35,058 nt of DNA from Bacteroidota bacterium. Lineage in GTDB: Bacteria > Bacteroidota > Ignavibacteria > Kryptoniales > JAKASW01. Below, piece after piece: positions 6,232-23,589 of the stretch; position 1 is the stretch's first letter; every line of letters starts with the position of its first letter. Position numbers and translations under genes: made by a program. The stretch covers positions 1-35,058 of the forward strand of contig JAJYRM010000040.1 in assembly GCA_021794075.1 (NCBI GenBank), read 5' to 3'. Below the pieces are notes generated by a model. That model worked only from the letters and a program-made list of their open reading frames with translations. It made no database searches and had not been told where the DNA came from.

Positions 6232-7501
6232 ACACATCAAGCGTGGGTGTATCGCCGCGCTTGCCATCGGCCTTTTCGGACTTACCGTGCTCGTATCGGG
6301 TTGCAGCCCAGCGATACATTCTTTCGCCGCGGATTTCAAGAACACATTATTCCCGCCGCGTTTCGGATTCTTCATCGTGAATTACCCGCTCATGAAGAGC
6401 GACTCCTCGGTAAGCGAACTTTACGCAAGGATCAGATATGACGACGTGGTCTTTGTCCACACGGATTCCGGGTTCTTCGCGCATTATCAATTCTCTGTAA
6501 ATGTGTTCGCCGACAAACAGCTCACCGACGTCGTTTATTCGAACATCTTCGACAAGAAGATAACCGTTCCACATTACGCAATGACTAATTCCGTCACGGC
6601 TTTCGATACAGTGAGGGACAGGGTAATTCTGAAGCCGGGAAAGTACTACATCATACTCAAGTTGTATGATTACAACACTGACCATACTTCCTCAAGGGAA
6701 ATAACGCATACCTTCAAGGATTTCCTGAAGAGTCCGCTGGCTATCAGCGACATTCTCCTCTATAACAACGAGGACACCAGCGGGATACCTATAGATATTC
6801 TGAGGAGCCGTGAAGACACGCTTCTCGCCGATTTCTACGTGACGATGAAGGACGCACCGGCAACCTTCTCGCTGCACGCCCTGGCGAAGTCCATTGAATC
6901 GCCTACTTCCATCGACACGACGATTGATATCACCCAGGCAAACAGAGTTCAAAAATACAAGCTGCCCATCGAGACGCAGATGCTTGCCGCCGGGACATAC
7001 CAGTTCAAGCTGACCGTGAAGAAGGGGAAAGCGGAGAGCAGCTCAGAGTCTGTCTTCAGGATACTCAGGAGCAGCATACCGGCAAATCCCGCGGAACTTG
7101 ACCAGGAGATCCGGCCGCTTATTTACATCACGACTCCAGAGGAGATCGCGCTGCTTAAGAAGGGGACATTTGAGGAAAGACGCCAGCGATTCCTGGACTT
7201 CTGGCTCACGCGCGCGGACGGCAACAAGGAGAAGGCATCCGCGATGAGAGCCGAGTTTTACAAGAGGGTCGACTACGCGAATCTTCACCTTGGAGGAGGT
7301 CTCGGACAAGGTTGGGAATCCGACCGCGGCAGGATCTATATTTTATATGGGCCACCCGATCAGGTCGAAACTCACGACGAAGATTTCACCACTCCGCCTT
7401 ACCAGATCTGGTATTATTACAACGTGAAACTTGAATTCGTTTTTCTGGACGAATTTGGGACGGGAGACTACAGGCTTGTGCAGACGAGCTCGTTAAGCTA
7501 G
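6215..7501 (+). CDS. GWxTD domain-containing lipoprotein
   Basis: A 428-residue exported protein. Seen: a hydrophobic signal segment ending in the lipobox LVSGC (Cys about residue 30), a long beta-rich middle, and near residues 360-415 the GWxTD domain as GWESDRGRIYILYGPPD followed by 'YQIWYYYNVKLEFVFLDEF'. The family is named for the G-W-x-T-D signature; here the Thr position is Ser. Its biochemical role is not established. The gene begins inside the last codons of the site-2 protease gene, a tight coupling that suggests a joint role at the envelope. It ends eight bases from the convergent def gene, with no terminator between. Confidence 0.88.
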   Translation: MTKISEHIKRGCIAALAIGLFGLTVLVSGCSPAIHSFAADFKNTLFPPRFGFFIVNYPLMKSDSSVSELYARIRYDDVVFVHTDSGFFAHYQFSVNVFADKQLTDVVYSNIFDKKITVPHYAMTNSVTAFDTVRDRVILKPGKYYIILKLYDYNTDHTSSREITHTFKDFLKSPLAISDILLYNNEDTSGIPIDILRSREDTLLADFYVTMKDAPATFSLHALAKSIESPTSIDTTIDITQANRVQKYKLPIETQMLAAGTYQFKLTVKKGKAESSSESVFRILRSSIPANPAELDQEIRPLIYITTPEEIALLKKGTFEERRQRFLDFWLTRADGNKEKASAMRAEFYKRVDYANLHLGGGLGQGWESDRGRIYILYGPPDQVETHDEDFTTPPYQIWYYYNVKLEFVFLDEFGTGDYRLVQTSSLS

Positions 7502-8077: not shown

Positions 8078-8950
8078 TTACTCCAGCATTTCCGGTTTAA
8101 CTTTAATTACTTCAATCTGGTTCTCTTTGTACAGAGCAGCTTCTCCGGCGTAAAAGATAAGCTTGGAGAAAATTCTAAGCAAAACAAATATCTGGCCGAC
8201 GACTATTTCCAGCACAACTCCATTTACGTCCAAAGCGCGGATAATGGAATCAAGATAGAACCAGCCGGCGATCACCGAGGCGCTAAAGACAACCGCGCCG
8301 CCATACACACCCATCGATGAAAGCGGATGCTTCATCACGAACGATAGACCTCGCATCACTTTACCGATAAAAGTCTCGTCATCGATCGCCACCGCCGCTC
8401 GTGCAAAATCAGACACAATGCTAACGAGAGAAAAAAATATCACGACCACGGCGTATCGCCAAAGCTCCGCATGCAATACCTGGTAGTCGGTGACGGCATT
8501 CCGCGCGGCTTCTCTGTTTGCGGCGGCCCAAACAGTATTCAGTTCGTACAAAAGGAAGAGGATCAACACTTCCGCGAGCGTTACAGCAAGAATCGGGAAA
8601 ACTTTTGAAGCGCAGTGAGAAACGAATGCCGTCAGCTTAGTCTTTCCTCCCGCAGCAAACGACGATAAGAATCCACCGGCAAGAAATGCCTCGACCAACA
8701 TGTAAAGAGCGAAGAGTAGTACGACCTGCGGAAAGAGCGAGCTGAAATATTTTCCGTTCGCATGCATGAATTCCACGTACCATCGATAACTGAAGCCTGA
8801 AAGGAGAGAGGTCCCCACAAGACTCTTCGACACGCTCCTCATGAAGATTACCACAAAAGGGAGAGCAAGAACCGCGGCGAAGAGAAAATTCAGCGCGTAA
8901 AAAATACCCCAAAGCCTCCAGTTCTTAAGCGATCTCCCAACTCCCAACAT
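8078..8950 (-). CDS. Multi-pass membrane protein of unknown function
   Basis: About 290 residues from the ATG at 8950. The open frame extends upstream to 9037, but that would overlap the preceding gene by more than 60 bases and adds a polar stretch ahead of the first membrane helix. Seen: about six hydrophobic segments ('IFYALNFLFAAVLALPFVVIF', 'LFALYMLVEAFLAGGFL', 'ILAVTLAEVLILFLLY', 'YAVVVIFFSLVSIVSDFA', 'GVYGGAVVFSASVIAGWFY', 'IVVGQIFVLLRIFSKLIFY') and a short charged C-terminus. No catalytic motif is recognised. It lies 23 bases after the M1-like gene and seven before def, so it is co-transcribed with envelope genes. The layout resembles generic inner-membrane proteins of the DUF4013 type, but I cannot assign it. 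Confidence 0.75.
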   Translation of the reverse strand: MLGVGRSLKNWRLWGIFYALNFLFAAVLALPFVVIFMRSVSKSLVGTSLLSGFSYRWYVEFMHANGKYFSSLFPQVVLLFALYMLVEAFLAGGFLSSFAAGGKTKLTAFVSHCASKVFPILAVTLAEVLILFLLYELNTVWAAANREAARNAVTDYQVLHAELWRYAVVVIFFSLVSIVSDFARAAVAIDDETFIGKVMRGLSFVMKHPLSSMGVYGGAVVFSASVIAGWFYLDSIIRALDVNGVVLEIVVGQIFVLLRIFSKLIFYAGEAALYKENQIEVIKVKPEMLE

Positions 8951-8973: not shown

Positions 8974-11010
8974 TCAAACCAACGTCCCCATGTTCAAAAG
9001 CATATTCTGGAAATAATTGAATATCCTCCCCGCCCATTTCAACACCGGCAAAAAGTACGAATGAAGTCGGAGACTGTTATTCGAGTAGTCTGTGTCGAGC
9101 GGAATCTTTCCGGCGGGATCCACCACGGCATAATCAGGAGGAGCGCTGGTCTTAAATCTAAACGATTGCCACCTGCTCTCTCCATTCCACAAAGTGTCTA
9201 CCGCAGTGCCGTCATCAAGCGCCAGGCGAACTTCGACCGGCATCTTAACCTCGCCGTTCCGGGCAACGACGACCGTAGTGTAATAGCTCGATGCACCCGT
9301 GCCGAGATCGGTTTCCTGAAAATAGTTGATCGACTTTACGGCAAAGTCTACAGTGCCTGTACCATCAACAAACTGATTGAAAAACCACGCGAGGTTCCTT
9401 CCTGACATCTGTTGACACTCATTCTCAAAATCCGCGGGAGTCGGGTGCCTGAATTTAAATTCGTTGAAGTAAGTCTTCAGTACAGTCGCCATCGTATCCT
9501 TCCCCAGAACGCCTTCTAGCATCCATAGGAGAAGATCAGGCTTTTCATACAACAGAGTGTTGCTCGCACTTCTGCCCGGACTTCGACGTCCGTAATCGGA
9601 AATGGCATTTGTCTTCGAGTTCCTCAAATAGCGGGAGAGCTTTTCATATGGTTCGCGGATCCACACCTTCCCAATAATCGACGCGACCGGGACCCCTAGT
9701 ACCGTCGCTATAGGTTGCATGTAAACAGGGTACACGCCTCCGAGTTTGAATATTGAAGCGCGAGGGCCATACGCTTTCTCCAAGACTCTCCCCGATGAAT
9801 ACAAATCCAATCCTTTGTCGAGCCAGGCGTTCTCGAAACCGCTGTTCGCGACAACACCGTACCAGTACTGGTATCCAAGCTCTCGTATCGTGGCCGCTTC
9901 CAGCGAGAGGGAGTTCTTAAGCGTGTAAACTGAAGCGCCGACGGCAATTAGGGTGGGGGACTCGAATTCGCTTCTGTTCTCGGCGAACGACCTCCCACCC
10001 CGCATCGTCCGTGGGAGATCGACGACAGTCAGCACAGGGTAAGGATAAGGCCCGTACCATAAGCCGAAGTACTTCATCGCCGTGTCTACCGCCGAGAGAT
10101 ATCTGCGCGCCATCGAGCGGTGATCGCGCTGAAGCAGGAGTAAAACCTTTGTGTCCGGAAGACCTGGGTACTTGAACTCGCGAGTGATACTCACGAAGTC
10201 AGGAGAGGCGGTCCAGGCGAAGTCGTGGACATCGTCGGTTGAGTAGTGAAACGTGAGGGTACCGTTCGAGTTCGGCGACATTCCGACTTCCTCACCGGTC
10301 GCGCCAACCTTGTATCCGCCCGGGACGGTAATCTTCACGTCATACGCGCCGAAATCCGCGAAAGAACCGCTCAAGGCGCGGACCTGACGACAATTCCAAG
10401 CCCCATTCCGAAATACACCAATTTTAGGGAACCACTTTGAGACGAGATAGAATTTCGAACCTGGCGCCCAGCCGCGCCCTAAAATCGCCTCCGGCAATTG
10501 CTCGTTAAAATCGATCGATATTGCGATCGAGTCTCCCGGGCCGACGGGTGAGGGCAGCTGTACCATCATAACAGTACTGTCACTCGTGTCACCGTCGTCT
10601 GGATGAACGTATTGGATCTGATCTGTCAGATCGGTGTTTGTCCGAAGGTCGGCGATGCCAATTATGTTTATCCATCCGCAGGCAGAAGCTGAAATGGTGC
10701 GTCCTCTTCCTGTCATATACGCGGTATTATCGCTCTTAAACGCGTTCGGATCTAGATGAAAAAACAGGCTTGCGGCGTTATGGCTCGTGGTGTTATGCCA
10801 CACGAGGACCTCGCGTCCGTCAATCGAATTTGCGCGGGGATTAAGTTGAACGTCGATAGAATAGTTAGCGATCCGTTTGCCCGAAAGTCTTGCTACGGCA
10901 ACGCAAGAGAAAAACAGAAGGAACGAGAAGACGACTGATGTGTGGAGAAGAAAGCGGCGGCGGTAGCTCCATCGCGACCCAATGAATTTACCTCCCAAAG
11001 GAGATCTCAT
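8974..11010 (-). CDS. M1 (aminopeptidase N-like) family protein lacking zinc ligands; probable pseudoenzyme
   Basis: A 678-residue exported protein with a signal segment near residues 20-41. The order is as in M1 peptidases: an N-terminal beta domain ('ANYSIDVQLNPRANSIDG', 'LFFHLDPNAF'), a catalytic-like domain, and a C-terminal helical part ending 'FFNQFVDGTG'. At the active site (about 9920-9840) the sequence is RELGYQYWYG, then 'FENAWLDKGLDLYSS'. Relatives read HEfgHQYWYG ... AWLDEG. Both zinc His (Arg and Tyr here) and the zinc Glu (Lys here) are replaced; only the HExxH Glu remains. The GAMEN region is also altered (MRGGRSFAENRSEF). The frame is intact, so this is a maintained but presumably non-hydrolytic protein. 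It overlaps the upstream lipoprotein gene by ATGA. Confidence 0.87.
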   Translation of the reverse strand: MRSPLGGKFIGSRWSYRRRFLLHTSVVFSFLLFFSCVAVARLSGKRIANYSIDVQLNPRANSIDGREVLVWHNTTSHNAASLFFHLDPNAFKSDNTAYMTGRGRTISASACGWINIIGIADLRTNTDLTDQIQYVHPDDGDTSDSTVMMVQLPSPVGPGDSIAISIDFNEQLPEAILGRGWAPGSKFYLVSKWFPKIGVFRNGAWNCRQVRALSGSFADFGAYDVKITVPGGYKVGATGEEVGMSPNSNGTLTFHYSTDDVHDFAWTASPDFVSITREFKYPGLPDTKVLLLLQRDHRSMARRYLSAVDTAMKYFGLWYGPYPYPVLTVVDLPRTMRGGRSFAENRSEFESPTLIAVGASVYTLKNSLSLEAATIRELGYQYWYGVVANSGFENAWLDKGLDLYSSGRVLEKAYGPRASIFKLGGVYPVYMQPIATVLGVPVASIIGKVWIREPYEKLSRYLRNSKTNAISDYGRRSPGRSASNTLLYEKPDLLLWMLEGVLGKDTMATVLKTYFNEFKFRHPTPADFENECQQMSGRNLAWFFNQFVDGTGTVDFAVKSINYFQETDLGTGASSYYTTVVVARNGEVKMPVEVRLALDDGTAVDTLWNGESRWQSFRFKTSAPPDYAVVDPAGKIPLDTDYSNNSLRLHSYFLPVLKWAGRIFNYFQNMLLNMGTLV

Positions 11011-11523: not shown

Positions 11524-12975
11524 TTAAATTCCGTAAGACTTCCACTTCGAATCGACGAGCTTCTTTATCTCGTCCGTCATTGAAATTTTGTCGGGCCACG
11601 GCCTGGTGAAACCTTCGTCGGGCCATTTTCGCGTCCCGTCGATTCCCATCTTGCTTCCGAAGCTGAAGTGCTGCGCCGAATGATCGAGGACATCGGCAGG
11701 CCCTTTTGTGAAGACGACGTCTCTCTGCGGATCGATATTATTCAGCGCGTACCACCACGCTTCCTGTGTGTTTTGAACGTTGACATCCTTGTCCACGACC
11801 ACTATGACTTTCGCGAACATCATCTGACCCATTCCCCAGAGTCCGTTCATGACTTTAAATGCGTGACCGGGATACCGTTTGTCGATCGATACGAAGACGA
11901 GATTGTGAAATATACCTTCGAATGGCATATGGTAGTCGACGATTTCAGGAATGACAAGCTTGGCGAGCGGGAGGAAGATCCTTTCGGTGGCCAATCCCAT
12001 AAAATCGTCTTCCATTATCGGCTGACCTACCACTGTCGAGACAAAGACCGGCTTCTTGCGCGTCGTGATCGCGGTAACATGGAACGCCGGATAATAGTCG
12101 GCGAGAGAATAGAAACCGGTATGATCGCCGAAGGGCCCTTCGAGACGAAGCTCCTCCTCCGTGTCGACATAACCTTCCAGAACAATTTCGGATTCCGCCG
12201 GCACTTCGAGGTCGACATTCTTGCACTTCACAAGCTCGACTGGGTCCTTCCTGAGAAAACCCGCAAAGAGATATTCCTCGATACTCTCAGGAAGCGGCGC
12301 GCTCGTGCTGTACATAGTAGCGGGATCCGAGCCCACTACCACAGCGACTTCGAGCCGCTTCATACCTTTCTCCTTCGCCTTCCTGAAATGGGCCGCGCCG
12401 CCTTTGTGCCTCTGCCAGTGCATTGCCGTCGTGTTCTTGTCGAGGACCTGCAGGCGGTAGAGTCCCATGTTGCGGATACCGGTCTCCGGATCCTTCGTAA
12501 CCACCTGTCCGAAAAGGATATACTGCCCTCCGTCCTGCGGCCACGAGGTGGTTATGGGAAGCTGGTAAAGATCGACGTCCTTATCATCGATAACGACTTC
12601 CTGGCACGCTCCCTTCTTCACGATCTTCGGTGGGAACTTCGCCATCTCCATCAGCTTCGGCATCATTGCCATCTTCCCGAGAAGCGACTCCGGTACTTTC
12701 AGATTCAGCATATCGGAGAGCCTGTCTCCGATCTCGTCGAGATCCTCGACGCCGAGCGCCCATGCCATCCTCTGCTTCGTACCGAAAATATTTATTGCGA
12801 GCGGAATCTTGCTCCCCTTCACGCTCGTGAAGAGGAGAGCCGGACCACCCGACTTGACCACTCGGTCGACTATCTCGGTAATCTCGAGCTTGGGATCGAC
12901 TTCAGTGTCGATCACTTTCAGCTCGTGTTTCTTCTTCAGTAGTTGAATGAACTCGTTGAGATTATTAATTGCCAT
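11524..12975 (-). CDS. ubiD: UbiD-family prenylated-FMN decarboxylase
   Basis: A decarboxylase of the UbiD family, which needs prenyl-FMN made by a UbiX partner (not in this window). In this lineage the likely role is removal of an aromatic ring carboxyl group during menaquinone/ubiquinone-type synthesis. 483 residues from the ATG at 12975; an upstream in-frame start at 13014 would overlap the previous gene by 50 bases. Seen: RNMGLYRLQ (cofactor-binding region), MHWQRHKGGAAHF, and EGPFGDHTGFYS with the acidic active-site residues, in the usual order and spacing. The first 11 bases overlap the NlpC/P60 gene's end. The substrate is inferred from the family; a catabolic aromatic acid is the alternative. 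Confidence 0.92.
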   Translation of the reverse strand: MAINNLNEFIQLLKKKHELKVIDTEVDPKLEITEIVDRVVKSGGPALLFTSVKGSKIPLAINIFGTKQRMAWALGVEDLDEIGDRLSDMLNLKVPESLLGKMAMMPKLMEMAKFPPKIVKKGACQEVVIDDKDVDLYQLPITTSWPQDGGQYILFGQVVTKDPETGIRNMGLYRLQVLDKNTTAMHWQRHKGGAAHFRKAKEKGMKRLEVAVVVGSDPATMYSTSAPLPESIEEYLFAGFLRKDPVELVKCKNVDLEVPAESEIVLEGYVDTEEELRLEGPFGDHTGFYSLADYYPAFHVTAITTRKKPVFVSTVVGQPIMEDDFMGLATERIFLPLAKLVIPEIVDYHMPFEGIFHNLVFVSIDKRYPGHAFKVMNGLWGMGQMMFAKVIVVVDKDVNVQNTQEAWWYALNNIDPQRDVVFTKGPADVLDHSAQHFSFGSKMGIDGTRKWPDEGFTRPWPDKISMTDEIKKLVDSKWKSYGI

Positions 12976-13612
12976 TTGAAATGTCCGTTGTGTTAATCTT
13001 CGTAGCCCCCGCATAGCGGCGCTTATAGTAGCGGCTGTCGAGCGACGATATCGTCACGCCTTCCGACACACTTGCGTTCGCGAACAGATCGTCGCCGATG
13101 TATATGCCAACGTGACTAATTCTCCGTCCGACCGTGATGAAGAAGACAAGGTCGCCCGGCTTAAGATCATCCTTCGGGATCCTCTCGCCGAGCTCCGACT
13201 GCGCAAGCGCGTTATGAGGGAGCTGGATTCCGTACACGGAGTTGAAAACCTCCATCGTGAAACCGGAGCAATCGATGCCCGAGTGTGTGGTGCCGCCGAT
13301 TTGATATGGAGTACCCATATACGACATGATCGCGCTCATCAGCCGGCTTGTGGCCGCATTTGGCGATTGCCTTTCCATCCGCCCGATCTCTTCCCGCAGC
13401 GCGTTAGGACTTAAGGTCCGATCATCCTCAGCCTTCAGCTCTTTTGCTTCCACCTTCAGCTGTTCAGGGGTCTCGTCAAAAGTGAATCGGGGCTTGCTGC
13501 TCGATGTCCCGTTGTTTCCGAAAGTGAACCGAGGCGACGATCCTGAACATCCCATGATGAAAAGGCACGCGGCGGCGCTGACGGAAACAAAGAGTCTGTA
13601 AGTCTTTTTCAT
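12965..13612 (-). CDS. NlpC/P60-family lipoprotein (peptidoglycan endopeptidase)
   Basis: A 215-residue exported cysteine peptidase expected to cut peptide stems of peptidoglycan. Seen: a lipoprotein signal with lipobox FIMGC (Cys22), a linker with the pentapeptide PRFTF twice (28-32 and 41-45), then an NlpC/P60 domain from about residue 92: 'MSYMGTPYQIGGTTHSGIDC' with catalytic Cys115, 'LKPGDLVFF', and His167 in RISHVGIYIGD. The third polar position reads Asn179 (FANAS) where many relatives have His (FIHAS). First gene of the leftward operon; its end overlaps ubiD. A promoter is expected just right of 13612, but no confident box is seen. Confidence 0.94.
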   Translation of the reverse strand: MKKTYRLFVSVSAAACLFIMGCSGSSPRFTFGNNGTSSSKPRFTFDETPEQLKVEAKELKAEDDRTLSPNALREEIGRMERQSPNAATSRLMSAIMSYMGTPYQIGGTTHSGIDCSGFTMEVFNSVYGIQLPHNALAQSELGERIPKDDLKPGDLVFFITVGRRISHVGIYIGDDLFANASVSEGVTISSLDSRYYKRRYAGATKINTTDISNGN

Positions 13613-14133: not shown

Positions 14134-15234
14134 ATGAAATACCAGGAGCTTTTGTTAGCTGTGTTGCTCTGTGCGAGTTTTTTCATTTCCTGTAACAAGA
14201 ACAGCAGTCTGGTCGGTCCAGGGAATCCTCCTGTATGGACGCAGTAACAATTACAAAGCTTGGAGGTCCGAGACGTTTGTGCGACGGGCAACGTCATTAT
14301 TGCAGGTGCCTACCGAGACTACACATCAAACGCATACTTCTTTCGCTCAACAGACAACGGGGTAACATGGGCGATGACAGATTCCTTCGGCGTAGATAAT
14401 ACTTCCCCTGGAGTGAATTTTGTTATTTATCCGTCTTTCACATTTCTTGTTGACGGCGCTGATATTTTTGCCAGTGTCGGGGGTGGAGTGAACAGGGGGG
14501 ATATATATCGTTCAACCGATGATGGGATAACATGGAGCGATAAGGGAATAAGCTGGCCTGAAAGTGGCACCGACCAGGCTGAAAACATCAGCGCCTTCTG
14601 CGCCGCGGGTCAGGATATCTTCGCTGCGACCTTTCACGGAGTTTTTCTTTCCACAGACCAAGGCAGGTATTGGAATCCGGCAAATAGCGGGTTCCCGACA
14701 ACTTATACTGGCTTTCCGCCTGTCGCTGGACACCTCTTAGCCACTGGCAACAGAGTCTTTGCAGGAACGGCAGACGGGATTTTCGAGTCTTCGGATGCTG
14801 GTGCAACCTGGAACTCGATAAGCCAGCGATTAAATGGCTCTCTCGCTGCAATCGGAACTGATATCTTTGTCGGCGTCTTTCAGTTTCCAGCGGATACCAA
14901 TGGTGGAGTATTTGTTTCCAAGGACAACGGCGCAAGTTGGAATCCTGTTAACAACGGACTGACTGAACACACAATAAATACTCTCATAACCGATGGAACG
15001 AATCTTTACGCTGGCACCAACTCTGGTGCATTCTTCTCAACGAATCAAGGCGCAAACTGGTCATTCATTTCTACAGGTTCACACACGGACTCAATGGTCG
15101 TTCTATGTCTTGCGGTAGGTAATTCAAGACTTGTGGAAGGAACGTTAAATGGCGTATCGCTTTACCCGCTTTCACAACTGTCAGGCACCGGAAGGAAGGC
15201 AACCCAAGTCCGTCGGAAGCAGAAAGGAGGATGA
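14134..15234 (+). pseudogene. Asp-box beta-propeller lipoprotein 1, interrupted by in-frame TAA
   Basis: The frame is continuous (367 codons) apart from a TAA at 14245-14247. The N-terminus MKYQELLLAVLLCASFFISC is a lipoprotein signal. After the stop the same frame continues with sialidase-type Asp-boxes (S-x-D-x-G-x-x-W): STDNGVTW, STDDGITW, STDQGRYW, SSDAGATW, SKDNGASW, STNQGANW, about one per propeller blade. Alignment with the next gene (WTQ-QLQ around the site) suggests CAA changed to TAA. Such propellers bind or cleave glycans or act as assembly factors (YCF48-like); no catalytic residues can be assigned. The broken start leaves no other good translation start with a signal peptide. First of three tandem paralogs. 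Confidence 0.82.
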
Positions 15235-15296
15235 CATGCTAATGTTCATATAACCATGGGGGACGTTCCAGCGCCCCCATAGCAGATAAGGCAAAT
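15223..15296 (+). repeat. Repeated intergenic unit, copy 1: SD, five-codon ORF, hairpin
   Basis: A strong Shine-Dalgarno AAAGGAGG (15223-15230) stands five bases before ATG CTA ATG TTC ATA TAA (15236-15253; MLMFI). This is followed by a hairpin with arms ATGGGGG (15256-15262) and CCCCCAT (15274-15280) and loop ACGTTCCAGCG. The unit overlaps the end of propeller gene 1 and precedes propeller gene 2. A close copy follows propeller gene 2. It could be a leader peptide with attenuation-type hairpin, or the remnant of a lost gene start copied during tandem duplication. Confidence 0.6.
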
Positions 15297-15336
15297 GATA
15301 GTTCATTTCCTTATACAAATGAGTTTAGGTGAAAAA

Positions 15337-16467
15337 TTGAAAACACATAAAATGTACACACAAGCTTTGTTGTCTCTGTTCTTGTGCTCAAGCATGTTCG
15401 CCTCCTGCAACAATACCAGTAATCTGGTTGGCCCTAGCACGGGTCCGGCATGGACTCAGCAGCTGCAGGGATCCGAGATTCCCTGTAGCTGTACCATTGG
15501 CAGTGTAGTCATCGTGGGCATCTCTGACGCTCCTTTATCGCGTGTTTATGTTGTACGGTCAACCGATGATGGTTCGGTGTGGCATGAGGTGGCCGAAATG
15601 CCCGTTGATAACCACTCTCCCGGTATCCACCTTTACCTGGATCCATCTGTGACATTCTTAACGGACGGCACGAGGGTACTCTTGGGGATTGGAGGCTGCA
15701 ATAGGGGTGGTATATATATTTCGGATGATAACGGAGTAAACTGGAGTGATAATGGAATACATTGGCCAGAGAGCGATTTCACTGCCGGGGCAGAAGACAT
15801 AAACAGCTTTGCACTACCGGGGGATATCATTTTTGCGGGAACGAACCATGGGGTATTTAGGTCGACAGACAACGGCGCAAACTGGAACGCGTTGAACTTC
15901 GGACTCTCGTATGGGAGTGTTGACGGTATTTATGGCCATGCACCTCAAGTAATGATGCTTGCAACGATGGGAAACGGTATATTTGCAGGTACCACGGGAG
16001 GCGGGGTCTTTCATTCTATTGATGATGGCGATAGTTGGATTCCGGTTAACAATGGCTTGGCGAGCCAGTCAATCTATGGTTTAGCCGGAATAGGGAACTA
16101 TATCTTCGCCGGCGCATTCCAATGGTCACGCAATTCTATTGGGGGTGTGTTTCTTTCAACTAATTATGGAGCAAGCTGGACGAGCGTCGACTCCGGCCTT
16201 ACGCAGCGGACGGTTAACGTGCTGGCTAGTCAAGGAAGGGACCTTTTTGCTGGCACAAATGACGGTGTTTCCGTTTCTACAAACTAAGGCACAAGTTGGG
16301 AGGACGTCTCTGCAGGGTCACCTCTAGACTCGCTCGTCGTCATCTCCCTGGCAGCAAATGCTTCATATCTTTTTGCCGGAACCAACGGAAGTGGAATCTG
16401 GCGTTACCCGCTCTGGGAGCTACCATCCGCGGGCAACGCAAGCGCAACCCAGAAATCATTCAAATGA
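15337..16467 (+). pseudogene. Asp-box beta-propeller lipoprotein 2, interrupted by in-frame TAA
   Basis: 377 codons in one frame, with a TAA at 16285-16287. The N-terminus MYTQALLSLFLCSSMFASC is a lipoprotein signal; the TTG at 15337 after AGGTGAAAAA matches the GTG start of the third paralog, with the ATG at 15352 as alternative. Asp-boxes: STDDGSVW, SDDNGVNW, STDNGANW, SIDDGDSW, STNYGASW. The stop falls exactly inside the last one (STN-stop-GTSW, where paralog 1 has STNQGANW), a CAA-to-TAA change. Past the stop the frame continues 60 codons to a normal blade end (AGTNGSGIWRYPLW). The truncated product would lack most of its final blade, so partial function is conceivable. Confidence 0.82.
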
Positions 16468-16542
16468 AAAGGAGGCTAAAATGCTGAAGTTCATTTGACT
16501 ATGGGAGACGTTCCAGCGCCCCCCACAGCAAGTAAGACAAAT
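16467..16542 (+). repeat. Repeated intergenic unit, copy 2: SD, five-codon ORF, hairpin
   Basis: AAAAGGAGG (16467-16475), a five-base spacer, then ATG CTG AAG TTC ATT TGA (16481-16498; MLKFI), then a weaker hairpin (GGGAG against CCCCC) with the same 11-base loop ACGTTCCAGCG at 16508-16518. Aligned with copy 1, the codon differences are CTA/CTG and ATA/ATT (silent), ATG/AAG (Met/Lys) and TAA/TGA (both stops). It precedes propeller gene 3. Confidence 0.6.
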
Positions 16543-16586
16543 ATAATCGACTGCATCTTGTCACGAAAACAAACTCAGGTGAAAAA

Positions 16587-17613
16587 GTGAATTACGGTTC
16601 GAAAGATAAATCAAGGTTGCTGGCATTAATCTTGTGTGTAAGTTTGTTTGCAGGCTGCAACGGGAACAGCACGATTGGCCCGAGCAACTCCCTATGGACA
16701 CGCTGCAGTGGCTTGCCAGACTTACCTGTCACTGGTTTCGCATCAGCGGGAAATGTCATTGTTGCAGGGAGTTATGATGCTCTTCTTTCGCAAGCTTACA
16801 TCTACATTTCCTTCGACAACGGTTCGAGCTGGTCGCTTGACACTACCTTTCAAACCGACAATCATGGATCAGGCACATCTTCTTATCTTGGCACGCCGGT
16901 CACTTTTCTTTCTGATGGCTTATATCTTTTCGCGGGGGTCGTGGGAGGAGACAGCGGCAACGTGTATGTTTCTATGAACGACGGTCTGACCTGGGTCGAA
17001 AGGGATCCGAGCTTCGTTGAGAATATTTACTGCCTCGCTGCGATGGGGAAAACCATTTGGGCCGGCACTGGTCACGGTGTGTTTGTCTCCACGGACCATG
17101 GTGTAAGTTGGACTTCTTTCAACAAGGGTATGCCACCCCCCCCTAGCAATCAGCGGTCTGGTTGCCACAGGAACATATATTTTCGCTGCCACGGAAGGGT
17201 TTGGGATATACCGTTCTGCAAATGGCGGTACAACTTGGGCCAAGGTCAATACAACAAAATTAGATTTCTACAGCCTTGTAACGATTAGGTCGGATATCTT
17301 TGCTGGGTATCCTGGGGGCTACTCCAACGGCGGTGTCCTCGTTTCCACGGATAACGGGATAACTTGGACCTCTGCAGATGTGGGACTGACAGATTCTTCT
17401 GTAAATGCTCTTTGTGTGGAGGGCTCGACCCTTTTCGCAGGCACAAATGCAGGTGTGTTCCTATCGAGAAATAGCGGAGGATATTGGTCGGATATTTCAA
17501 CGGGAACTTCGGTTGATTCAGTAGCCACAATCGCTCTTTTTTCTAATGCATCATTTTTACTCGCCGGCACAAACGGTAACGGTGCGTGGAGGTACCCCGT
17601 TTTCCTAAAATGA
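16587..17613 (+). pseudogene. Asp-box beta-propeller lipoprotein 3, frameshifted at a C8 tract
   Basis: The start is GTG with AGGTGAAAAA upstream; the signal ends in lipobox LFAGC. Asp-boxes in the first frame: SFDNGSSW, SMNDGLTW, STDHGVSW. At a run of eight Cs (17136-17143) the reading leaves the propeller frame and stops at 17288. In the frame one base over, the propeller continues at once (LAISGLVATGTYIFAATEGF) with SANGGTTW, STDNGITW and SRNSGGYW to a TGA at 17613. Seven Cs would restore one frame. A homopolymer slip may be a fixed lesion, a phase-variable switch or a sequencing error. Total length and blade pattern match paralogs 1 and 2. Confidence 0.82.
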
Positions 17614-17663
17614 GCTTGTAAACAACACACGCTTTAACTTAAAACCCTTAGGAGGAAGAACCT

Positions 17664-20600
17664 ATGAAAAAGATGGCACTAAGACATTGGCTTTCGATAG
17701 TCACATTCTTGTTGCTCCAAATTGGCACTGCCATGAGCGCCAAAGGACAACAATTAATCCACGGCACCGTCCCAGGTGATATCGCAAGGCTCGGACTAAG
17801 ACCAATAGCTCGTTTGGACAGCGCGAGGGAGTTGAACTTCGCTATTTGCCTTCCCTTGCGAGACAAGGCCGGACTTACCGACCTTCTACGGCAGTTATAT
17901 AATCCGGCAAGTCCTAACTACCACCGTTGGCTCACTGTCCAACAGTTTACGTCAGAATTCGGCCCGGCCCGACAAGATTATCAACGGGTAATTGACTTTG
18001 CAAGGACAAACGGCTTGGCTGTCATGAGTACTTCTCCAAACCGTATGATTGTCGATGTGCGCGGGACGGTAGCAAGCATTGAAAGGACATTGCACATAAA
18101 AATGTATCTTTACAAACATCCTGGGGAGACACGCACTTTCTACGCTCCGGGCAGCGATCCGTCCTTGACTTTAAGCGTTCCAATTTCGAGAATTAGCGGC
18201 TTGGACAATTTCTCTCGTCCACATCCTCTTTCTAATCCGACTCGAATTGTCAACGCCGCAACACCGGCACCTAATGCTGGATCAGGACCGAATGGCATGT
18301 ACTGGGGAACTGACTTCAGAGCAGCCTAAGTACCTGGCGTTTCACTTAATGGATCAGGTGAGAAATTGGGACTACTTCAATTTGACGGGTTCAACCAGAA
18401 TGACATCACGTACTACGAGAACTACAATTCACCGTCTCTCCCGAACGTCCCTTTAGATACCGTGCTCCTGGACAACTTTGACGGAAATCCGATCGGGAAT
18501 ACCGATTTCGATACTGAGGTTTGTCTTGACATCGAAATGGCAATATCGATGGCACCGGGATTGTCGGACATCGTCGTTTACGAAGCAGGCCCGTATGGCA
18601 ACTATGACGATATCATCACCCGCATGGCAACTGACAACACATGCAAACAACTGAGTTCCTCATGGTCCGTGAATGGCGATTCGAAGGATAGTTATGCTGA
18701 CCAGGTTTTCCAAGAAATGGCTGCTCAGGGTCAGTCATTTTTCCAGGCATCGGGAGATGACGATGCGATAATTGATTCCACTTGGATAAGCGGTGGCGAC
18801 ACAGTGTACTCCTATTTCGGTTTTCCCTGCGATGATCCGAACATCACCCAGTTGGGCGGGACTACGCTGACCACAAGTGGCGCTGGCGGCTCGTATGTTT
18901 CGGAAACCGTTTGGAATACCGACACGTACTACCCGTCACATCATGCATTCCTGGGAAGCTCTGGGGGTGTGAGCACATTATATTCCATCCCCACTTGGCA
19001 GCAAAACGCCAACCCATCCAATAGTCAGATGTCGTCGAGCGAGAGGTATGTTCCTGATGTGGCTCTCACTGCCGATAATGTTTATGTTCGGGCTGATAAT
19101 GCTGATTGGACAGATCAGGGTACAAGCTGTGCTGCACCCCTTTGGGCCGGATTCACCGCATTGGCCAACGAACAGTCCGCTCACAATGGTCAGAACCCAA
19201 TCGGTTTTCTCAATCCCTTGATTTACGCGATCGGTCAATCCGAGTTGTATTCCTCAGACTTCCACGACACACCTGCCGGGAGCAACAACGCATGGCCCGG
19301 AAGTTCTGGCCAGTATGCTGCAACATCCGGTTTTGATCTTGCTACTGGTTGGGGTACTCCAGATGGGCAGCATCTCATCAACGATCTTGCCTCCACCATT
19401 TGGAGCGGCGATACGGCTTTTTCTTCCAACTTCACTGTGAGTAGCGGACAGACGGTCGCGATTATGCCTGGCGCAAACATTACGTTTTCAAATGGTGCCG
19501 GCATAATCGTGCACGGAACCCTGAATGTCTACGGAACATCCTCCCAGCCAGTCACGATGACATCTTCATCGGGCACATGGGCAGGAATTACTTTCGCTGG
19601 CTCCAGCACAGGTAACCTTCAGGACTGCACAATCTCCTCTGCCAGTTCGCCGGTCATAATCGATACCGCCAATGTCACAATAAACGGCTGAACGATTAAC
19701 AACTCATCGTTCCAATCGAATATTTACGGCGGAACAGCAATTGACGTTCTGGACTCGGATCCGAACATCACGAACACAGCTATCGATGGCCAGTCCAACT
19801 CCTTCAATGGTATCACCTTTACCAGCGGAAGCATCGGGACGGTCAGCGGGTGTACCATGGAGAACCTTGGTGCCGGGACCGGGGTCGTTATAGAGGGGGG
19901 ATCGAGCCCGTCAATACTGTCGAGCAGAATGACTGGAAACGGCTACTACGGCATTATCGTTCAAAATAATGGCACGGGCAACCCGGTGGTCGAATCCGAC
20001 TACATCAACTCCAACGGCGGAGGTACAAATTACGCCGCGATAATATTCGACAACGCGAGCGGCCACGTTGACTTCGATACCCTGAGCAACAATTATGACG
20101 GAATTCATTGCTACGACTATGGCTCGCCGTATACATCCGGCCCGGCAGGCGGCCAGAATATCGTCATAGACAACAGCTACGGGATCTATGCGGACACGTA
20201 CAGTTCTCCCGTCTTCGGCCATGCAGTCGGAAATCCACCGGTCACATACGACGGCACTTGTAACCAGTTCTATAACAATTCCTCGGACAATCTGTATGCT
20301 GTAAATAACAGTTCCGTAATGGCAGAATATGACTGGTGGGGAAGCTATCCTCCGGGCGGCGGGTTCTATGCCGACGGAACTTCTTCATTGGATTATACAA
20401 ATGCGCTCACTTCTCCAGGCGCCTGCCCAAGCAGCGGGTCAGCAACGGTTGCTACGAACAGCACGACAAACACGGCTGCTACCCCCATTCAACAGGCTTA
20501 TGGGACGAAGCAGCCGGCCAATGGAAGCAGGCAGCGACCGAGTACGTTCGCGTCCTTAGAGATACTCTTTCGCTTGCAGAGAAGCGGTACGCACTCGAAC

Positions 20601-21280
20601 GGCTCTATCATGTATTGCAGGTATCGAAGGACACGACCATTATCGGCACGTTCAAGGCTCTGGGCGACTCGACGGGACCGCTTACATCAATGGCTCAGGA
20701 AATCCTTGCAGGCGCGTACGTTGCCGCCGGAAGGCTGTCTGATGCCGAGACGACGGCAAACAGCCTGATCGCTCAACATCCGGGTACAGGTACCGCGGAA
20801 AGAGCACTCATCCTTCTTGCGTCCCTGTACCAGTATAATCCTTCTTACAACCAGGTGTCGTCCTCCGCCCTTGCGGAGCTCGAAAAGAAGTGGCCTTCAG
20901 CTCTCGACCCCGGTTTGATATCCGCGCTTAATACAGGGATGGGTAGTGCATCTCCCACTTCACCGACGTCCCAGAACAGACCGGTGGCGGTAACGAATGA
21001 CAGCATCGACTCGGCACCGTTGAAGTTCGAGCTGGGAAATTACCCCAACCCGTTCAATCCGACAACGGTCATAAAATATGAGGTACCGAAGGAGACTCAC
21101 GTTACGATAACCGTTTACGACGTCCTGGGCCGCAAGGTTGAAACTCTCGTCGATGGCATCGAGACGGCCGGAATCCACGAAGTTACGTTCGACGGATCAC
21201 GTCTTGCCAGCGGAGTGTACTTCTACAGACCTACGACACCAACTTACTCGAAGGTAATGAAGATGTTGACGCTAAAATGA
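17664..21280 (+). pseudogene. S53 (sedolisin) protease with beta-helix and T9SS tail, three lesions
   Basis: The original product was about 1,205 residues. Signal peptide (ending SAKGQ), pro-kumamolisin activation domain (codons about 30-200), S53 catalytic domain with Glu285 and Asp289 (TEVCLDIE), oxyanion Asp in QASGDDD and Ser in GTSCAAP near codon 488, then right-handed beta-helix repeats, a helical TPR-like stretch, and a T9SS sorting domain (YPNPFNPTT ... SGVYFYRP ... MKMLTLK). Lesions: TAA at 18327-18329 where relatives have Tyr (DFRAA-YVPG); TGA at 19689-19691 where Cys or Trp fits (NG-stop-TINN); and a one-base loss near 20497 (frame moves at IQQA to LWDEAAGQW). Good Shine-Dalgarno AGGAGG before the ATG. 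Catalytic residues survive, so decay looks recent. Confidence 0.85.
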
Positions 21281-21458: not shown

Positions 21459-22607
21459 CTATCTGAAGTCGGTCGACAACTCATATCGCAATACCCTATC
21501 GTGACCCGTATCGCTGATGTAGACGATCTTATTGAAATAAGTCACGCCGGATGGATTCAGGAGCGCGTTCCCGGATTTCACCGGCCCGAACGATTCGTGG
21601 AGCAGCTTGCCGGTCATGTCGAATTTCATCAGGCTGTCGAGCCCGCTGTCGACAACGTAGATATTGCTCCTGTCGTCAACCATCACCGCCTGTGGGGATA
21701 CAAAAATATTCGAAAGCATATCGGGCAGGATTCCGCTGGAATACTTCGTCTGGTCGAGACTCAGCCGCGAACTCCACGTCGGCGCCGCGAGCTCACTCCC
21801 CGGATTGAAGGTGAACCACTTCACTTTGAACGCGTTTGCCGGGTCGACCTGAGTCACGATGAAGTCGGTGCCGAATTGCTTCGTGTTGAATGTCGTAATG
21901 CCGCTGAGGTTGTTGATTGCCGCGAAACCGGATCCGGTCGGGAGAAGGCTCGGGACAAGGTCGATATAATCGCTCGAGTATTGCAGGTCATTCTTGCTGA
22001 AATGAAGGACCATGTTGTCCGGGTCGATGGGGCTGGAGTTGTTGTTGCCGTGACGCGTGACGTAATAGCTGTTGTCCGGAAGCACCGCCACTCCCGTGTA
22101 TTCTCTTCCGGAGACAAGTCCGCCGTTGCCGTCTCTGACTATCTGGTTCTGAACGTTCTCGTGATGGACGATTTCTACAGGAGCCGCCGATATGTCATGG
22201 TTATAATCGTAGAGCCTTATCTTAGCAATTGCGGCTACCGTCACCGGCCTCGAAGCCACGATCGTGTCATATTCACATGCGATTATGAGGTTGAACCTTC
22301 TGTCCTCGGTTATCGCGACAGGATCCTTCACATATTGGGAATGACCGACGTTGGCTCCGGAAAGCTCGACCATTTGCACACGATTGCTGTCCGGCTCGGT
22401 GACATACAGGATATAGTCGTAACCGACCTTAATTCCCTTCGGCGAGGAGAAGCCTGTCCAGACCGGCTGCATCTGGATGTAGCTGGTATCGCCGACTACC
22501 TGACCGCCGGAAGCCTTCGGAAGGGTTGCCGGGTCGACTATCTTAGATTTTTCGTTGCAGCCCGAAATTACGAGCGCCGCCAGGAATATGATCATCGTGT
22601 TTTTCAT
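21459..22607 (-). CDS. NHL/six-bladed beta-propeller lipoprotein
   Basis: A 382-residue protein with lipoprotein signal (MKNTMIIFLAALVISGC). The body shows repeating propeller-like strands ('SPKGIKVGYDYILYVTEPDS', 'GVAVLPDNSYYVTRHG', 'PQAVMVDDRSNIYVVDSGLD', 'PSGVTYFNKIVYISDTGHD') of the NHL/SMP-30 type, where 'N-IYV-D-G--' marks each blade. No catalytic site can be named; such proteins often bind ligands or scaffold outer-membrane complexes. It is last in the leftward exported-protein cluster, one base after the PorV-like gene, so it is likely made with the barrel and the TonB-dependent receptor. Intact, in contrast with the neighbouring propeller pseudogenes, to which it is not obviously related. 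Confidence 0.85.
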   Translation of the reverse strand: MKNTMIIFLAALVISGCNEKSKIVDPATLPKASGGQVVGDTSYIQMQPVWTGFSSPKGIKVGYDYILYVTEPDSNRVQMVELSGANVGHSQYVKDPVAITEDRRFNLIIACEYDTIVASRPVTVAAIAKIRLYDYNHDISAAPVEIVHHENVQNQIVRDGNGGLVSGREYTGVAVLPDNSYYVTRHGNNNSSPIDPDNMVLHFSKNDLQYSSDYIDLVPSLLPTGSGFAAINNLSGITTFNTKQFGTDFIVTQVDPANAFKVKWFTFNPGSELAAPTWSSRLSLDQTKYSSGILPDMLSNIFVSPQAVMVDDRSNIYVVDSGLDSLMKFDMTGKLLHESFGPVKSGNALLNPSGVTYFNKIVYISDTGHDRVLRYELSTDFR

Positions 22608-22608
22608 T

Positions 22609-23589
22609 TCAGAAACTCATCTCTATTGAGAATCTGTGAACATCGCCGAGACGCTGGTAGGGCGTGAAAGCATAGTCGAACTCGACCAGCGCGAACTTCA
22701 TGTCAGCCCGGACGCCCGCGCCGGCAGAGTAACTCTGCTCCGTAACGTTCACTTTATACCCTCCCCTTAGAAAGACTGTTGAGTTGTACGAATACTCTGC
22801 TCCGAAAGCGAGATTTTCTGAGTTGTCCGCGGGGTGATTTAGCTGCGCGGTAGCGGTGACAATGTTTTGCTTATCCTGGTACGGCTCGAACGCGAACCCT
22901 ATCCGGAATATCGTCGGCGGCGAAAAGCCCTGGAAACCGGACACGGTGCTCCCGTCGACGAGCTGAACGGAGCCGCTCGGAGACATCTGTCCGCCGAAGT
23001 TGCTGACGGACACAGCGAACCTGGTGGAACCTATACCGGTCCAGTAATATGTCCCGAGATCGACGAGCACACCATGCATTGAAAGGTCGGCGAGCGTCTC
23101 ATCTATGTATTTCACCGTTACGCCGAAGCTGAACCGGTCTGTCATTTTCCGGGCATACGTCGCACCAAACGCAAGGTCTCCGTATTTGAAATACGCTCCC
23201 GTGCCGTACGGCTGATATTCGGTGGTAACCGGCATGTCGTCGGTCTGAAGCGAGATTACCGACACGCCGATGGTATTCTGTCCATCGAGGTGGTAAACGC
23301 CGCCGATGAAATCGTGCTGTAGCCCTATGAACCATGTCGAATGCGAGACGGCAACCTGATTTTTGTCGAACTCCGCTATTCCGGCCGGATTGTAGAACAA
23401 TGCGTAAGCGTCGTTGGCAATCGCCGCGTAGCTCTCGGCCATCGCGTTCGCTCTCGCCCCGACGCCAATCTTCAAAAATTCCGCCGTCGTTATGCCGACA
23501 CGTTGGGCTCCAAGGTTCGGAAACAACTGAGCCCTGGCCAACCCCGATGTTAACAGAATTGTCAGAATAGTTAAGAGATTCTTTTTCAT
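22609..23589 (-). CDS. PorV/PorQ-family outer-membrane beta-barrel protein
   Basis: A 326-residue exported barrel. Seen: a signal peptide ending ARAQ, then the family opening 'AEFLKIGVGARANAMAESYA' and 'NDAYALFYNPAGIAEFDKNQ', which marks PorV/PorQ and related FadL-like barrels, followed by amphipathic strands to a C-terminal Phe. PorV works in type IX secretion as a shuttle that brings cargo to the surface attachment machinery; many lineages carry extra paralogs placed beside cargo genes. The neighbouring T9SS-tailed proteins and receptor fit that picture, so this may be a dedicated paralog for this cluster rather than the general PorV. Co-transcribed with the NHL lipoprotein gene. Confidence 0.88.
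   Translation of the reverse strand: MKKNLLTILTILLTSGLARAQLFPNLGAQRVGITTAEFLKIGVGARANAMAESYAAIANDAYALFYNPAGIAEFDKNQVAVSHSTWFIGLQHDFIGGVYHLDGQNTIGVSVISLQTDDMPVTTEYQPYGTGAYFKYGDLAFGATYARKMTDRFSFGVTVKYIDETLADLSMHGVLVDLGTYYWTGIGSTRFAVSVSNFGGQMSPSGSVQLVDGSTVSGFQGFSPPTIFRIGFAFEPYQDKQNIVTATAQLNHPADNSENLAFGAEYSYNSTVFLRGGYKVNVTEQSYSAGAGVRADMKFALVEFDYAFTPYQRLGDVHRFSIEMSF

Follow-up and report, generated by a model that had tools for sequence, protein, structure and literature searches.

Why should four adjacent genes for exported proteins all be broken in a stretch of chromosome whose other genes are intact? They lie within the window, the whole 35,058-nucleotide stretch of DNA analyzed here, which is contig 54 of a draft Bacteroidota genome (4.53 Mb in 240 contigs); the lesions are known from assembled sequence. 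We think it roughly 80% probable that the block is an exported-protein cassette, situated at a variable site of the chromosome, that was inactivated recently, and that its loss is recurrent. Below, we set out the lesions, the history of the site, the likely age and cause of the inactivation, and a short intergenic element found within the block.

Six lesions in four adjacent genes

The block consists of three tandem genes for BNR-propeller lipoproteins (p1, p2, and p3) and a gene for an S53 protease, all on the plus strand. BNR/Asp-box repeats (PF02012) score at or above the cut-off in p1 (47.1 bits), in p2, and in the N-terminal part of p3, and the propeller lipoproteins have signal-like N termini ending in cysteine, as judged by eye. 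A preliminary description listed six lesions in these genes, and all were confirmed at or very near the positions it gave. The p1 gene (14134 to 15234) is stopped by a TAA at 14245 after 37 codons, p2 (15352 to 16467) by a TAA at 16285, and the S53 gene (17664 to 21280) by a TAA at 18327 and a TGA at 19689. All homologs aligned at these four nonsense sites (3 to 5 per alignment) carry sense codons there. The p3 gene (16587 to 17613) is frameshifted at a C8 tract (17136 to 17143); tblastn with the intact homolog from G002 places the change of frame at 17147/17149 (genomes of the genus carry G labels, the window's own being G000). The S53 gene is frameshifted as well, as described, but the position near 20497 had to be corrected: tblastn with intact relatives puts the shift between 20450 and 20483.

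The genes on either side were described as intact and oppositely oriented, and both statements hold. The remaining 19 genes of the window, which comprise 7,731 codons, are all open and carry no lesion, and the block runs opposite to its flanks on both sides. If lesions fell uniformly over coding codons, the probability of finding all six inside the island would be 1.4e-4. The left neighbor is an NlpC/P60 lipoprotein gene (12965 to 13612, minus strand; PF00877, E = 1.1e-30), and the right neighbor encodes an NHL-repeat protein (21459 to 22607, minus strand; PF01436, 24.1 bits against a cut-off of 20). A gene of the PorV/PorQ family, related to type IX secretion (T9SS), also adjoins the island (22612 to 23589) and is followed by a TonB-dependent receptor gene. 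There is no tRNA within the window, and a tRNA-associated island was dropped as a reading.

Elsewhere in the same genome, we scanned sampled stretches totaling 328 kb by a method that detects nonsense only, not frameshifts, and found one other convincing mid-gene nonsense, at L089:3372 in a T9SS cargo gene. A genome-wide problem of pseudogenes or errors was rejected on this result. Nearly all other T9SS cargo genes sampled in this genome are long frames with a signal-like start. At L089:3372 (contig 21), the in-frame TAA splits the cargo gene into frames of 186 and 934 codons. Separately, a gene in G009 (L175; G009:C51:14107-17382) has one in-frame TAG, whereas its ortholog in the window's genome, a T9SS gene of 1102 codons to which it is 96% identical, is open. 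A T9SS cargo protein of 1132 residues is matched at its two ends by a pair of overlapping frames, arranged alike in G000 (G000:C137:16268-17420) and G012 (G012:C26:34-1135); the pair is either a remnant of older, shared origin or represents two genuine genes.

The S53 gene is laid out as a pro-domain, a catalytic domain, a beta-helix, a TPR region, and a T9SS sorting tail. Its pro-kumamolisin activation domain matches PF09286 (90.5 bits, cut-off 23.5, E = 1.6e-25). The catalytic domain aligns to kumamolisin-As (E = 8e-29), including the EVxLD, GD, and GTS motifs (Glu, Asp, Asp, Ser), and the C-terminal sorting domain matches TIGR04183 (40.4 bits, cut-off 23) and PF18962 (36.6 bits, cut-off 27). 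The gene thus has the pro-kumamolisin domain and the S53 catalytic domain with its Glu/Asp/Asp/Ser motifs in common with kumamolisin-As and other S53 (sedolisin) peptidases; unlike them, it adds the beta-helix, the TPR region, and the T9SS sorting tail, and it is broken. A sorting domain above the curated cut-off would also place the product with type IX secretion cargo, but unlike in such cargo, a stop and a frameshift lie between the catalytic part and the tail and sever the two. The TAA at 18327 parts the pro-domain from the catalytic domain, and no single open frame remains, which makes this a broken member of S53; a full-length protease with a secretion tail can no longer be made from the window locus. 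The same beta-helix/TPR/T9SS tail is joined to another N-terminal part in G012 (L037:5753-9570) and in G009, and the joining of different N-terminal parts to one tail is, judging from the sequences, module swapping.

A variable site with mosaic contents

Is the island an old resident of this part of the chromosome? The flanking genes give a handle on the question. The NlpC/P60 gene, which forms the left border of the variable site, is present and intact in 12 of the 13 genus genomes, and the NHL-repeat gene, which forms the right border, was located in 12 of the 13. The preliminary description proposed comparing the locus in relatives. This comparison found the site nearly empty in five genomes (a gap of only 72 to 553 bp in G001, G002, G004, G010, and G011), differently filled in three (1.4 to 2.5 kb of other sequence in G003, G005, and G007), and separately broken in two sisters, G009 and G012. 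The gap is 7.6 to 7.9 kb in G012 and in the window's genome, and G009 has an island at the same site that spans a contig break. The island therefore characterizes the G000/G009/G012 lineage, and the site that it occupies is a variable one. In G007 (L114), the flanking genes enclose a 427-codon ORF for a serpin-like lipoprotein, named by eye. Homologous clusters, with propellers beside S53 genes, occur at other loci in G002, G004, G010, G006, and G011, and several of those in G002, G004, G010, and G006 have open full-length genes.

The lesions in the two sister islands have no position in common with those of the window. In G012, a propeller gene is truncated by a TAG (L037:3799), and a second gene, which carries the beta-helix/TPR/T9SS tail, has a TAG at 6983 and a frameshift near 9517; the FG-GAP T9SS gene of the island is intact. 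In G009, the FG-GAP gene is also intact, and the gene with the beta-helix/TPR/T9SS tail has a TAA (L107:8013) and a TAG (L108:1160). The beta-helix part shared by G012 and G009 is 95% identical with a dN/dS of 0.083, so these breaks look young. Other members of the family are broken too. In G011, p2 has a stop and the S53 gene on contig 75 has a TAG; in G004, the second S53 copy has a frameshift at a C run; and in G002, the frame of an S53 gene is shifted by a palindromic repeat (CCGCCGCAAGCGGCGGGG, twice) that has inserted into its N-terminal part (L030 ~8240-8320).

Similarity to relatives changes abruptly along the island. In comparison with G012, identity is 90% across the initial 259 bp of p1 and ~91% from 21033 onward, which covers the T9SS tail and the right flank; between these two segments, it is much lower. 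The p2 gene is 79.5% identical to p2 of G011 over 1,310 nt (dS ~0.65), whereas the flanking genes of these two genomes are at synonymous saturation, and this p2 block starts and finishes inside the two intergenic element copies described below. A comparable segment is found in G002 and G004, which are 94% identical over 682 nt (L030:5011-5690 and L033:1996-2677) beginning at approximately an element copy. This segment holds a 197-codon ORF between propeller genes, and the adjacent propellers are far less alike; going by these identities, it was likely exchanged recently. From the mosaic identities with G012, with G011 p2, and between G002 and G004, we infer cassette exchange by homologous recombination.

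These results bear on the earlier suggestion that the block is acquired DNA, which stands in part. Two findings favor acquisition: five members of the genus have almost nothing at the site, and p2 resembles its G011 counterpart far more closely than the flanking genes resemble theirs, which supports cassette exchange as the means of acquiring p2. Base composition, however, gives no support. The propeller genes had looked A/T-rich by eye, but their GC contents (0.489, 0.507, and 0.492) lie within one standard deviation of the genome mean (0.513 in 1-kb segments, s.d. 0.046), and the propellers of relatives are similar, so A/T-rich foreign DNA was rejected.

Age and cause of the inactivation

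The substitutions in these genes show how little has changed apart from the lesions. Values of dN/dS between the window and its relatives are ~0.1 to 0.24 where dS is measurable. In three-way comparisons, dN on the window branch is 0.063 for the S53 catalytic part (versus 0.140 for G002 and 0.218 for G010), 0.104 for the beta-helix (versus 0.123 for G012 and 0.069 for G010), and 0.062 for p2 (versus 0.076 for G011); these comparisons reveal no clear excess of amino-acid change on the window branch. Because this change is not accelerated, the inactivation is recent. The count of nonsense changes leads to the same place: four in 2,269 codons require just 0.016 to 0.019 neutral substitutions per site (95% interval, ~0.004 to 0.05). 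The two estimates agree that the loss is recent, and an assumption of readthrough is unnecessary. Together with the lesions that two sister species acquired independently at this site, the branch values uphold the view in the preliminary description that the damage looks recent. Coding constraint is still visible within the genes, so they may have been nonfunctional only briefly, or in just part of the population, and p2, which keeps most of its length, could retain partial function. Bacterial pseudogene clusters that arise from recent relaxed selection likewise consist of adjacent genes with nonsense and frameshift lesions and little other divergence; unlike in those clusters, here two sister species are independently broken in related genes at the same site.

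A plausible course of events can be outlined. Where intact, as in related species, the cluster is predicted to encode between one and three lipoproteins of the BNR-propeller type plus an S53 protease exported by the T9SS, and its domains suggest that this module probably acts at the surface, where it would bind external polypeptides and cleave them. The island would have been established between the NlpC/P60 and NHL-repeat genes in the G000/G009/G012 lineage and then partly replaced by recombination between conserved stretches, namely, the 5′ end of p1, the T9SS tail, and, in the case of p2, the intergenic elements. A relaxation of selection would have followed, with each gene acquiring its own disabling mutation or mutations, and the sister species would have lost related genes independently. 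The loss is most simply accounted for by a relaxed need for the genes once they had been acquired.

An unlikely but live alternative, compatible with recent inactivation of the cassette, is a balanced polymorphism. In this view the secreted protease serves as a public good, and alleles that do not produce it would arise repeatedly within each species and be retained alongside intact ones; a single genome would thus often show a fresh break, which would explain why losses recur. The independent young breaks in G000, G009, and G012, the further breaks in the family in G002, G004, and G011, and the low dN/dS of the beta-helix part shared by G009 and G012 all fit such a polymorphism. However, the comparison is of one genome per species, and cell-bound lipoproteins are broken as well as the secreted protease.

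It is tempting to ask whether the lesions are simply sequencing, assembly, or strain-mixing errors, given a draft genome in 240 contigs and frameshifts that both lie at or near C runs. This is improbable, since four of the six lesions are substitutions, the flanking codons and the 328-kb nonsense scans are nearly free of such defects (none and one, respectively), and the sister genomes carry other lesions in related genes at the site. The argument of the preliminary description, that the pattern is unlike sequencing error, is sound, and both the clean flanks and the FG-GAP gene that stays intact beside the broken genes of the sister islands add weight to it. Phase variation, in which slippage of C tracts would toggle the genes on and off, draws on the C8 tract in p3 and the C run at the frameshift of the second S53 copy in G004, but it leaves the four nonsense substitutions unexplained and finds a long tract only in p3, making it very improbable. 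Least credible is that the stops are read through or recoded to yield full proteins, a bypass raised in the preliminary description: similarity at the protein level does continue across each stop, but the window has TAA and TGA and the sisters TAG, no positions are common, homologs have sense codons at the sites, there are frameshifts besides, and other genes of the genome terminate at ordinary stops. An altered genetic code was rejected given the several stop types and the sense codons of relatives.

An intergenic element beside the propeller genes

Recent inactivation of an exported-protein cassette accounts for the broken genes; the spaces between them hold something else. An element of ~72 nt comprises a strong Shine-Dalgarno sequence near the end of a propeller gene, a five-codon ORF, its stop, and then a G/C hairpin. 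Copy 1 (15221 to 15292, plus strand), recognized by alignment, pair counts, and a covariance-model match (E = 3e-16), has the ORF MLMFI at 15236 to 15253 and the hairpin at 15256 to 15280. Copy 2 (16466 to 16539, plus strand; covariance-model match, E = 4e-15) has the ORF MLKFI at 16481 to 16498 and a hairpin with one stem mismatch. There are 18 copies, 2 in the window and 16 in relatives, and the element follows p1, p2, and most propellers of the family in the genus. The predicted ORF is kept in 15 of the 18 copies, with synonymous codons and all three stops in use; its consensus is M[LRV]KF[IT], and the variants are MLKFI, MLKFT, MRKFI, MVKFT, MLNFT, MLMFI, and others. In the helix, 91.1% of cells are paired and 7 are compensatory, and covariation was as high in 0 of 500 shuffles. 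T-rich stems were seen by eye downstream of the element in G005 and G006 only.

The element is closely tied to this gene family. All confident covariance-model matches in the 13 genomes adjoin propeller or S53 genes, and a class-wide search of 119 genomes gave just one weak match outside the genus. A search of Rfam returned no known RNA family at gathering thresholds. Control stretches contained no perfect-stem copies of the element's loop type, but this strict test also misses the window copies, so it is the covariance-model searches that provide the evidence against a common genomic repeat, which we rejected because their confident matches lie only beside propeller and S53 genes.

What might such an element do? 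Like leader-peptide attenuators, it has a five-codon ORF with a strong Shine-Dalgarno sequence just upstream of a covarying hairpin; unlike them, it sits between cistrons, after a propeller gene. It could act as a leader-type intercistronic control, in which the hairpin would abut a ribosome that is finishing the five-codon ORF. Tentatively, then, the element may be an undescribed leader-type regulatory RNA of the propeller/S53 surface system, with copies that double as recombination boundaries for interspecies cassette exchange, in a cluster that would be a fast-turning module with recurrent breaks. We regard this combined proposal as possible but doubtful.

Our search of the open-licence literature on S53 with T9SS, BNR lipoproteins with sedolisins, Bacteroidetes leader peptides, and T9SS cargo decay returned nothing on this case. 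Recent pseudogenization of this sort is a known kind of event; the intergenic element embedded in it here is of interest. Confirmation of the element would add a new family of RNAs, one that carries a leader peptide of five residues and is confined, or almost confined, to a single genus. The cluster itself shows cleanly how an uncultured Bacteroidota genus has recently and repeatedly lost a secreted-protease module, and relatives whose clusters are unbroken allow comparison. Such a system could help to establish whether the repeated loss of secreted public goods occurs in nature.
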